Assembly: GCA_023267275.1 (NCBI GenBank)
Contig: JAHFNO010000013.1
Location: forward strand, 1-37,844
Direction: 5' to 3'
From: Candidatus Nomurabacteria bacterium
GTDB taxonomy: Bacteria > Patescibacteriota > Minisyncoccia > Phycocordibacterales > UBA9973
DNA: 37,844 nucleotides
The notes beneath the pieces are model-generated. The model was not told the origin of the DNA. It saw only the letters and a program-made list of their open reading frames with translations, and searched no databases. Both the position numbers and the translations under genes were made by a program. Shown here in pieces: positions 6,917 through 14,414 of this stretch (the stretch's first letter is position 1; each line of letters opens with the position of its first letter).

Positions 6917-6950
6917 TGTGTCATCCTGAACTTGATTCAGGATCCATGAC
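6917..6950. repeat. REP-like palindrome (copy 1): tgtgtcatcctgaacttgattcaggatccatgac
   Basis: Stem atcctgaa..ttcaggat; recurs at 9801, 11544, 28738, 35931 and 35985. Confidence 0.8.
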
Positions 6951-11543: not shown

Positions 11544-11572
11544 GGTCATCCTGAACTTGTTTCAGGATCTAT
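11544..11572. repeat. REP-like palindrome (copy 3), overlapping the PAP2 3' end
   Basis: gtcatcctgaacttgtttcaggatctat. Confidence 0.75.
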
Positions 11573-12226
11573 TGGTATATTTGAACCTGTATTTCTCAGT
11601 TTTTTTTTAAATGCTTTTCCTACGGTGATACCAATGACAGTTCCAAGAATTATTCCGGCAATAAAATCACTGAACCAATGAAAAGCGACTGATGCTCCAA
11701 GTCCAATAAACAATGCATATCCGATGGCCCAATATCGCAATCGTTTCTTTTCTGGAAAAAGCGTAATCAATGCGACGCTCATGGCAAATGCCACTGTCGT
11801 ATGTGAAGATGGCCATCCTTGAAAGGCTCCGCCACGTAAAAACCCAAATTGAAATTGGTGACTTGTATCGATTAGGGTTGCGGTGTGTGGCAGTCCTACG
11901 CGTCCGGTAAATACTTTGTAGAGAGATGAAATCGCAAGACCAAGCAAGCCTGCCTGTGCTGTAGCCGTCCCGGCAACTTTCATTTTTTTGTTACGCGATG
12001 CGAGAAGTAATCCCGCGAGAATTATTGGAATCAAAAAACCGAGCATTCCTGCCGAAAATCCAACTATTTGGAGAATTGTATTGCGAGTTGTTTCGTAATA
12101 CCACCAATCAAATCCCAAAAGAACAAGAATCGCAGTGAGTGCAATAAAAACAAACTGCCAGAATAGATTTTTTCCAGTGAATATACGAGAGATTGTTTGC
12201 TGTAATTGATATGCAATATTTTTCAC
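11546..12226 (-). CDS. PAP2-family phosphatase membrane protein
   Basis: GGAFQGWPSSHTTVAFAMSVALI ... HWFSDFIAGIILGTVIG (PSSH / SDxxAG motifs). Confidence 0.9.
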   Translation of the reverse strand: MKNIAYQLQQTISRIFTGKNLFWQFVFIALTAILVLLGFDWWYYETTRNTILQIVGFSAGMLGFLIPIILAGLLLASRNKKMKVAGTATAQAGLLGLAISSLYKVFTGRVGLPHTATLIDTSHQFQFGFLRGGAFQGWPSSHTTVAFAMSVALITLFPEKKRLRYWAIGYALFIGLGASVAFHWFSDFIAGIILGTVIGITVGKAFKKKLRNTGSNIPIDPETSSG

Positions 12227-12311
12227 TTTTATATTTTACCATGAGTATTTACTCTTAAACAAAAATACTGAATATAGAGAAAATATGCAGACAATATACA
12301 GAAAATATTAG

Positions 12312-12361
12312 GAATCCGTATAGCACTTTACGACAGCTGTCGTAAAGTGCTATACGGATTC
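12312..12361. repeat. perfect 50-bp palindrome
   Basis: GAATCCGTATAGCACTTTACGACAG|CTGTCGTAAAGTGCTATACGGATTC, zero spacer. Confidence 0.95.
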
Positions 12362-12372
12362 GACAGAGTTTT

Positions 12373-12406
12373 TATAGCACCAACTACGGCCGTAGTTGGT
12401 GCTATA
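12373..12406. repeat. perfect 34-bp palindrome
   Basis: TATAGCACCAACTACGG|CCGTAGTTGGTGCTATA, zero spacer. Confidence 0.95.
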
Positions 12407-12489
12407 TAATTACGACAGTACGAGCTTCTCTCAAGTCGGTCGAGTCTTGAATTTGCATTTTAGTAAAAATTATGTTCTAATTTGAATAC

Positions 12490-13239
12490 ATGATGAAAAA
12501 ACGCACTGCCACTCCAGCTCCAGTTTCAGCTCCGGCAAAAACAAAATCAACTGTTCGTATCAACAAGCACATGGCCGACATGGGCCTTGCTTCACGTCGC
12601 GAAGCAGACGAACTTATCACAAAAGGTTTGGTTTTGGTAAATGATAAAAAAGCAGTTCCTGGCATGCAGATCAATCCCCTTTCCGACAAGGTTACTCTCA
12701 AGGGCAACAAGCAATCGCTCGTATATTACGCGTACAACAAGCCACAAGGCATTGTAACCACAGGTGCGCAAGGTGATGAGGAAGATATACTCGACGTGAC
12801 AAAATTCCGTACGGCAGTCTTCCCTGTTGGACGTCTCGACAAAGATTCTCGTGGACTTATTTTGATGACCAACGACCGTCGTATTACACACCGCTTACTC
12901 GATCCAAAATTTGAACACGAAAAAGAATATCGTGTGACACTCGCAAAAGGTATCACCAATAAATTTATTAAAGCGCTTGAACACGGAATGATTGTGGATG
13001 GAGTGCGTACAAAAAGTACAAAAATCACTCGTGAGGGCGACAATAGTTTTCGTATTATTTTGAAAGAAGGACGAAATCGTCAGATTCGAAAAATGGTGGA
13101 AGCTGCCGGCGATCAAGTAGTGAATCTCATTCGTCTTCGCATTGAACACATCGAACTCGGCAATCTCCAAGCCGGCGTTCACCGTAACCTCACTGGTCTC
13201 GAAGCCAAGGATCTACTCACAAAATTGGGATTAAAATAA
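12490..13239 (+). CDS. RsuA/RluB-family rRNA pseudouridine synthase
   Basis: S4 domain INKHMADMGLASRREADELITKGLVLVND; NKPQGIVTT; FPVGRLDKDSRGLILMTND; EGRNRQIRKMVEAAG. Confidence 0.93.
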   Translation: MMKKRTATPAPVSAPAKTKSTVRINKHMADMGLASRREADELITKGLVLVNDKKAVPGMQINPLSDKVTLKGNKQSLVYYAYNKPQGIVTTGAQGDEEDILDVTKFRTAVFPVGRLDKDSRGLILMTNDRRITHRLLDPKFEHEKEYRVTLAKGITNKFIKALEHGMIVDGVRTKSTKITREGDNSFRIILKEGRNRQIRKMVEAAGDQVVNLIRLRIEHIELGNLQAGVHRNLTGLEAKDLLTKLGLK

Positions 13240-13245
13240 GTAATC

Positions 13246-13270
13246 AAAAACCGCCAGCTAGGCGGTTTTT
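13246..13270. terminator. bidirectional terminator AAAAACCGCCagctaGGCGGTTTTT
   Basis: Perfect stem with flanking A/T tracts immediately after the rluB-type stop. Confidence 0.85.
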
Positions 13271-13433: not shown

Positions 13434-14150
13434 TTATATTAGCATGTTATTTAATGTTTCAACAGTATAGCGTTCTTCAACATGATTGTCAATTATGTCA
13501 ATATTTTCTTTATAATAACGGTCGGATCCATCAATATTTTTAACAAGAAGGTCTACTTGAATTTGATTGCCAAATTCTTGCTTTAATGTATTAACACTGT
13601 CGTGTGCAGAAAAATATTGCTTAATGAAAGTGCTGAGTTCTATTCTTCTACCCTCTCGTTTTTCTCTTTCTTGAACAAAGTTCCATGCCTGGATTGGATC
13701 TTGATACACATAAAAAATTTGCACAAACCTCTTTCGTTTCAATGATCGTTGAATGTTTTCTCTGGCAATTTTTGTATTCGAAAGTGTTCCGTCAAAAATG
13801 AAACTTTGATTATTTTTTAGTGCGAGATCATGAATCCTGGATACAAGAATTGAGACAGCACCATGAAATAAATAGGAATTGTTTCCAGTGTATCCTGGAA
13901 TTAAGCACCGCAATTCGTCCGGGTCTATTCGGAGAATCTGGTTACCATTTTGCGAAAATTTCTTAATAAGGTTTATGGATGACTCTGTTTTTCCTGCACC
14001 TGGCGAGCCAGCCATGAATACTGATACTGGATTTTTTTCAGATAAATATATATCGTTGCGGGTGATTTTCTCAGCAATAATATATTTTTCAGCATTTGCG
14101 AAGGCATCAGCTGCCTCTTTAATTATTTTTTCCTCTTGAGAAAGTTCCAT
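13434..14150 (-). CDS. zeta-toxin-like P-loop kinase
   Basis: VFMAGSPGAGKTESS (Walker A), ILRIDPDELRCLIPGYTGNNS, NQSFIFDGTLSN, VREREKREGRRI-type helix. Confidence 0.88.
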   Translation of the reverse strand: MELSQEEKIIKEAADAFANAEKYIIAEKITRNDIYLSEKNPVSVFMAGSPGAGKTESSINLIKKFSQNGNQILRIDPDELRCLIPGYTGNNSYLFHGAVSILVSRIHDLALKNNQSFIFDGTLSNTKIARENIQRSLKRKRFVQIFYVYQDPIQAWNFVQEREKREGRRIELSTFIKQYFSAHDSVNTLKQEFGNQIQVDLLVKNIDGSDRYYKENIDIIDNHVEERYTVETLNNMLI

Positions 14151-14209
14151 GTTTACATTTTATCATACTTACAAAAACAAAATTGTTGATATTCTATAGG
14201 TAAGACAAA

Positions 14210-14382
14210 AAGGACGCAATCGTCAGATTCGCAAAATGGTGGAAGCTGCCGGCGATCAAGTAGTGGATCTCATTCGTCTTCGCATCGAGCACATTGAACT
14301 CGGCAATCTTCAAGCCGGCGTTCACCGTAATCTCACTGGTCTCGAAGCCAAAGATTTACTCACAAAATTGGGATTGAAATAA
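14210..14382 (+). pseudogene. second, truncated copy of the 3' end of the RluB-type gene
   Basis: About 173 nt aligning gaplessly (offset 1143) to 13067..13239 with about 11 differences counted by eye; encodes GRNRQIRKMVEAAGDQVVDLIRLRIEHIELGNLQAGVHRNLTGLEAKDLLTKLGLK*. Confidence 0.93.
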
Positions 14383-14384
14383 TC

Positions 14385-14414
14385 AAAAAAATCACTCATG
14401 TGAGTGATTTTTTT
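14385..14414. terminator. terminator AAAAAAATCACTCAtgTGAGTGATTTTTTT
   Basis: Palindromic stem with A/T tails right after the truncated-copy stop codon. Confidence 0.85.

Follow-up and report, generated by a model that had tools for sequence, protein, structure and literature searches.

Tandem perfect palindromes in a Candidatus Nomurabacteria genome and their possible kinship with palindrome-bracketed winged-helix/Cas2-like genes

The tandem palindromes P1 and P2

The stretch of DNA analysed here (the window, 37,844 nucleotides of a Candidatus Nomurabacteria genome) carries two perfect palindromes in the divergent intergenic region between a gene for a PAP2-superfamily phosphatase (11546-12226, minus strand; PF01569) and a gene for a RluB-type protein with S4 and pseudouridine synthase domains (12490-13239, plus strand; PF00849 and PF01479). 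P1 (12312-12361) is 50 bp long and P2 (12373-12406) is 34 bp long; their arms, of 25 and 17 bp, respectively, meet without a spacer and contain 0 mismatches, and neither palindrome is assigned to a strand. An 11 bp spacer (12362-12372) separates them, so that their centres lie 53 bp, or approx. five helical turns, apart. A preliminary description of this DNA had given the lengths, the interval and the location exactly. P1 reads GAATCCGTATAGCACTTTACGACAG/CTGTCGTAAAGTGCTATACGGATTC, where the slash marks the centre, and P2 reads TATAGCACCAACTACGG/CCGTAGTTGGTGCTATA. The 36 bp core of P1 can be written as TATAGCAC-TTTA-CGACAG/CTGTCG-TAAA-GTGCTATA, and P2 is laid out as TATAGCAC-CAACTACGG/CCGTAGTTG-GTGCTATA. 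At the base composition of the window, the chance expectation is 1e-10 for arms of at least 25 bp and 5e-6 for arms of at least 17 bp. Moreover, all four copies of TATAGCAC in the window (0.65 expected) lie inside P1 and P2.

A probable promoter of the rluB-type gene (TTGCAT-N17-TCTAAT, 12453-12481, plus strand), proposed by sequence comparison, ends 8 nt upstream of the ATG, and the congener G002 has a matching layout. P1 and P2 end 46 bp upstream of this candidate and would therefore be outside the rluB transcript. Directly before P1, three 16 nt copies (AATATAGAGAA, AATATGCAGAC and AATATACAGAA) follow one another in an 11 bp register (12271-12308) and possibly constitute bent, helically phased DNA. 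On the other side of the palindromes, a 187 bp direct repeat (13064-13250 and 14207-14389, 91% identical) spans the 3' end of the rluB-type gene. Between its two copies lies a zeta-toxin-like gene (13434-14150, minus strand), as if this gene had come with, or caused, the duplication of the rluB end.

It is exceedingly improbable that P1 and P2 act at the RNA level as bidirectional terminators or stem-loops. As single-stranded DNA, each folds into a full-length hairpin with a 4 nt loop (z = -12.7, DNA parameters), so that very stable hairpins are predicted, and P1 gives one weak terminator-like match with a T-rich tail on the minus strand. However, P2 has no T-tract, no Rfam family matches P1 or P2 at its gathering score, and in every perfect copy the symmetry runs through the central 4 bp, although a hairpin loop would have no need of it. 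Ordinary terminators are also common in this genome, with loops of 3-5 nt and A/T tracts (T-tracts in the canonical form), and most of the palindromes differ from them. The candidate identification of P1 and P2 as terminators was dropped on account of the missing T-tract at P2 and the weak minus-strand match at P1, as the preliminary description had anticipated in calling them untypical of terminators.

Related sites and the palindrome load of the genome

The genome comprises 1.02 Mb in 33 contigs. The motif TATAGCAC, rightly singled out at the outset as common to both palindromes, matters because it defines a family with seven or more members in this genome and almost none elsewhere in the order. 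Palindromes of the form TATAGCAC...GTGCTATA are found on contigs 5 (P1 and P2), 22, 10 and 30, and variant sites are found on contigs 2 (TATAGCAG) and 4 (CATAGCAC). A copy of P1 at contig 22:56361-56399 is identical over 39 bp and has other flanks, and imperfect relatives of P2 (88% over 34 bp) lie on contigs 30 and 2. The scan for TATAGCAC that had been suggested earlier gave 27 matches in the genome, of which 10 are in palindromes, compared with 37 for the reversed control. Thus, a promoter reading, in which GTGCTATA would be an extended -10 element, was rejected as an account of the motif in general, because there is no genome-wide excess of TATAGCAC beyond the palindromes and because the rluB promoter lies downstream. 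The comparison with relatives, likewise suggested earlier, detected no TATAGCAC palindrome by strict pattern in 146 further genomes from the family or in approx. 396 others from the order; a single variant TATAGCAT site, TATAGCATCAAACGACGG/CCGTCGTTAATGCTATA, which resembles P2, occurs in G015, a member of another genus of the same family, between the convergent genes glmU and trxB (names read from the translations). No relatives of the palindromes were found in viral contigs.

A sister family of sites has the form TTAACA-N5-CGTCAG/CTGACG-N5-TGTTAA and is represented by four sites here and six in the congener G001. Contig 30 holds a mixed tandem, in which 11 bp separate a sister-type site from a TATAGCAC-type site and the distance between the two centres is 51 bp; this layout is common to the contig 30 pair and the pair in the window and therefore ties the two site families together. 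The TATAGCAC site on contig 10 lies between convergent genes. One gene there (L053:10083-10913), whose 3' end is 2 bp from the palindrome, encodes a 276 aa protein that has no Pfam match and an N-terminus resembling a winged helix. Also on contig 10, a 36 bp perfect palindrome (L053:3929-3964) lies 5' of a RelB-like antitoxin gene and is probably its operator.

Long perfect palindromes are a general property of this genome. A scan for others, also proposed in the preliminary description, found 14 zero-spacer palindromes with arms of at least 17 bp (range 34-52 bp) in the 450 kb sample from which the genome-wide counts derive. In 411 kb, 24 zero-spacer quasi-palindromes had 15 or more of 18 positions paired, compared with 0 after a Markov shuffle, and in a 50 kb control from E. 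coli K-12, no zero-spacer palindrome with arms of at least 10 bp was present. The earlier worry about instability or assembly artefacts is therefore not supported for palindromes of this size, which are common here. It is very unlikely that P1 and P2 are sequencing artefacts, since P1 recurs on another contig within different flanks and independently assembled relatives carry perfect palindromes like them.

Such abundance raises the question of whether the palindromes are functionless by-products of replication template switching, which in this lineage would turn any quasi-palindrome into a perfect one. In other organisms, inverted repeats are known to be perfected in this way (PMC8794818, PMC8604942). 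In this genome, a perfect 34 bp zero-spacer palindrome lies within the coding sequence of an alanine racemase on contig 2 (L058:9241-9274), and the protein aligns to PDB 4y2w with no insertion; ordinary terminators, too, have unusually long perfect arms. Nonetheless, the idea that nothing more is involved appears improbable, because it accounts neither for families of sites that recur with their outer and inner blocks fixed nor for the palindromes that specifically bracket Cas2-like genes (see below). The identity of the arms may well be maintained by template switching, and the alanine racemase palindrome supports the operation of some such process in this genome. The same palindrome was also considered as proof of mobility and was dropped, since the protein aligns without an insertion.

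Winged-helix/Cas2-like genes bracketed by palindromes

On contig 23, two sister-type sites, here of the form TTAACA-N5-CGTCA-NN-TGACG-N5-TGTTAA, flank a single gene, and a homologue located elsewhere in the genome of G001 is flanked likewise. The product combines an N-terminal winged helix with a Cas2-like domain (PF20803, PaaX_M). All 45 aligned proteins match PF20803, and the bracketed genes of this genome score above the Pfam cut-off; HTH_45 was found in 11 of the 45. An AlphaFold model built from 45 relatives (mean pLDDT 85.7) predicts a winged helix and a ferredoxin fold, and in a Foldseek search of the PDB its top match was E. coli PaaX (8a39, E 1.4e-3), followed by Cas2 structures. One Asp, within an FD motif, is invariant across the 45 sequences. 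Family members are 120-200 aa long, and the genome has seven such genes; the number per genome varies from 0 to 19 across 146 genomes of the family.

Six of the seven PaaX_M genes have long inverted repeats on both sides that are specific to the paralog. For five of them, these are palindromes with a zero- or 2-nt spacer on each side. The gene on contig 8 has a palindrome downstream and, upstream, an inverted repeat of 63 bp whose arms are 29 nt apart. The seventh gene, of a type widespread in the family, has a palindrome upstream only, and its relatives have a conserved TTGACAAGTATTTCGCG-type palindrome in the equivalent position; this is as expected of a putative self-repressor. When bracketing was defined as palindromes on both sides of a gene that resemble each other, it was found for 52 of 110 Cas2-like loci from many species and for only 1 of 386 ordinary genes. 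The latter count comes from this genome, where 4 of all 389 genes qualified: three Cas2-like genes and, as the fourth, an ABC-transporter gene bracketed by sister-type sites. At a laxer cut-off, re-pairing upstream and downstream palindromes between loci gave a mean of 16, compared with 54 true pairs. The units so defined are 387-698 bp long, with the upstream centre at a median of 36 bp before the start codon and the downstream centre at a median of 27 bp after the stop codon. In several units (for example, L209, L210 and L211), the two palindromes differ in the middle while each remains internally perfect, an anatomy like that of P1 compared with P2. No description of such gene-plus-palindrome units was found in the literature searched.

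The units have features in common with several known systems. With PaaX repressors (PF20803; E. coli PaaX, PDB 8a39), they share the winged helix and the Cas2-like dimerisation domain, and E. coli PaaX also has a wide inverted-repeat operator (TGATTC-N27-GAATCA, PMC9493321) and is reported to be autoregulated. However, the proteins described here are shorter (158-193 aa among those scored) and reach only 16-34 bits with the NCBIfam PaaX model TIGR02277, far under its cut-off of 264.55; they are not PaaX proper, i.e., the full-length protein with its C-terminal domain. In addition, the units differ from PaaX in the presence of up to 19 paralogs in a genome, of perfect paralog-specific palindromes on both sides of the gene, and of solo palindromes. 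The Cas2-like domain matches the model of CRISPR-associated Cas2 (TIGR01573), and four of the six tested proteins exceed its cut-off; therefore, databases may file them as CRISPR Cas2. Unlike CRISPR Cas2, these proteins have an extra winged helix and match only part of the model, and no cas1 was present among the annotated immediate neighbours of the several units examined. Integron attC cassettes, too, are genes delimited by structured sites whose ends are conserved and whose middles vary but stay paired, whereas the sites in the window have no RYYYAAC/GTTRRRY boxes and the units are scattered singly rather than in arrays.

A close architectural parallel is found in the REPtrons, in which RAYT genes are flanked by REP palindromes that also occur as stand-alone intergenic copies (PMC3733652). 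It could thus be asked whether the palindromes are REP- or MITE-like ends moved by a tyrosine or DDE transposase encoded elsewhere, with the Cas2-like genes as passengers, and a separate REP-like repeat, GGTCATCCTGAACTTGTTTCAGGATCT, is indeed dispersed in the genome. This appears very doubtful. By inspection, there is no GTAG/CGTC tag on P1, P2 or the sister sites, and there is no loop. The protein encoded in the units is not a tyrosine transposase, the palindromes are perfect with zero spacers, and there are few copies per family and many families per genome, all in contrast to REP/RAYT. Moreover, each Cas2-like paralog has bracketing palindromes of its own; this suggests that they are recognised by the paralog itself and not by one shared transposase.

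Recognition, copying and regulation

Taken with these units, P1 and P2 are on balance best explained as tandem stand-alone, gene-less sites of a family that also occurs in the form of units in which a Cas2-like gene lies between two palindromes. They are called stand-alone sites and not a unit because contig 5 has no PF20803 match, i.e., no Cas2-like gene lies beside them. Three observations tentatively tie them to the units: the anatomy, the mixed tandem pair on contig 30, and half-site identities of 12-13 of 17 positions. Specifically, the P1 half-site is identical to the sister type of the contig 23 unit at 12 of 17 positions, and the contig 10 TATAGCAC site is identical to the palindromes bracketing the contig 22 gene at 13 of 17. 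With a pooled matrix of bracketing half-sites, the matches of P1 (p 0.09) and P2 (p 0.05) are weak, as are those of several true members. Against this explanation, the cognate protein for TATAGCAC is missing or unrecognised: none of the seven PaaX_M genes of the genome is bracketed by TATAGCAC palindromes. Among the roles proposed in the preliminary description, those of mobile-element site and of target for a dimeric protein are now favoured jointly, as sites of the kind that bracket mobile-looking winged-helix/Cas2-like genes, whereas a cruciform is not favoured.

Within this explanation, a homodimer would bind a 34-36 bp palindrome such that its Cas2-like ferredoxin domains sit over the dyad and each outer arm is contacted by one winged helix. 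Such a model fits the length of the palindromes, their conserved outer and inner blocks and their free middle; E. coli PaaX is reported to bind a similarly wide dyad (TGATTC-N27-GAATCA, PMC9493321). Two dimers on sites approx. five turns apart might bind side by side and cooperatively. In the units, the upstream palindrome sits where the promoter of the gene is expected, so self-repression is probable, and the second palindrome would form the 3' boundary of the unit. From one copy to the next, half-sites appear to keep their outer and inner blocks while the middle drifts. Since binding does not explain the perfect pairing of this free middle, the arms may be made identical again at the site itself, for which template switching from one arm to the other during replication would be the simplest mechanism.

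The main rival, which we consider unlikely though serious, holds that P1 and P2 are plain operators through which a PaaX-like repressor controls the divergent PAP2 and rluB promoters, with nothing mobile involved. P1 and P2 do lie between two divergent promoters at a spacing of approx. five helical turns, PaaX-like repressors bind wide dyads, and the widely shared relatives keep a conserved palindrome only at their own promoter. However, similar solo sites on contig 10 and in G015 lie in convergent intergenic regions, in which a promoter would not be expected, and complete units have a palindrome after the stop codon as well. Furthermore, operators do not need perfect symmetry over 34-50 bp across a variable middle, and the identity of P1 with its contig 22 copy over 39 bp extends to non-conserved positions.

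The explanation of P1 and P2 as gene-less members of a unit-forming family also implies that units and solo palindromes may be copied into new intergenic places. In five of five congeners, ksgA comes immediately after uvrD, whereas here the contig 23 unit lies between them; similarly, a HIT-family gene adjoins recJ in five of five congeners and is here separated from it by an extra gene and the contig 7 unit. Because these two complete units (contigs 23 and 7) interrupt neighbourhoods that are intact in five congeners, they appear to be gained, mobile-looking units, so that presence and absence at orthologous places is seen for both. Their gain could also be a transfer of ordinary genes with their operators. 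The intergenic region of P1 and P2 is not syntenic in congeners. In G001, a 34 bp site is present in three identical copies, and the 63 bp element 5' of the contig 8 gene (L131) recurs inverted on contig 30 (L055:2762-2824) with 62 of 63 positions identical. Together with the contig 22 twin of P1, these repeats suggest, at the level of sequence, that palindromes have been copied. The 63 bp element is an inverted repeat with a 29 nt non-palindromic centre, and a 44 bp piece of it (91%) is also present in L118. No target-site duplication was evident by eye at contigs 5, 10, 22 and 23, and to our knowledge, no transposase chemistry is known for a Cas2-like protein alone.

A bolder proposal, put forward tentatively and judged possible rather than probable, is that the winged-helix Cas2-like protein recognises and helps to move the palindromes that bracket its own gene. 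The units would then represent an undescribed minimal class of mobile element in Patescibacteria, with sites such as P1 and P2 as gene-less copies or landing sites, in effect a REPtron-like selfish system built on a Cas2 fold without Cas1. If mobile, the units would rank with the smallest known autonomous elements, and the Cas2 fold would have a transposition-related role outside CRISPR. If they are only regulatory, then genomes considered poor in regulation would have undergone an unusual multiplication of self-contained repressors. The findings point to a little-noticed kind of gene-plus-palindrome unit in Paceibacterota genomes, and the data suggest that many such Cas2-like genes, rather than encoding CRISPR Cas2, form a large, fast-changing family of DNA-binding proteins with palindromes of their own, present in 0-19 copies in genomes of only approx. 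0.4-1 Mb. Their paired yet variable arms also offer a natural test bed for the perfection of inverted repeats by template switching.

Other dispersed repeats were observed in passing. A REP-like hairpin repeat, GGTCATCCTGAACTTGTTTCAGGATCTATT, has many copies in the genome, including two in the window (11544-11573, where it reaches into the end of the PAP2 gene and the beginning of the YgjP gene, and 6920-6944); matches of 24-29 bp occur in other genomes of the family. A further dispersed inverted-repeat family (L071:1169-1247, L055:15784-15832 and L059:17892-17932) is MITE-like, with ends of the form TATACCC[GA]CACACTTAC and unrelated interiors of differing length.
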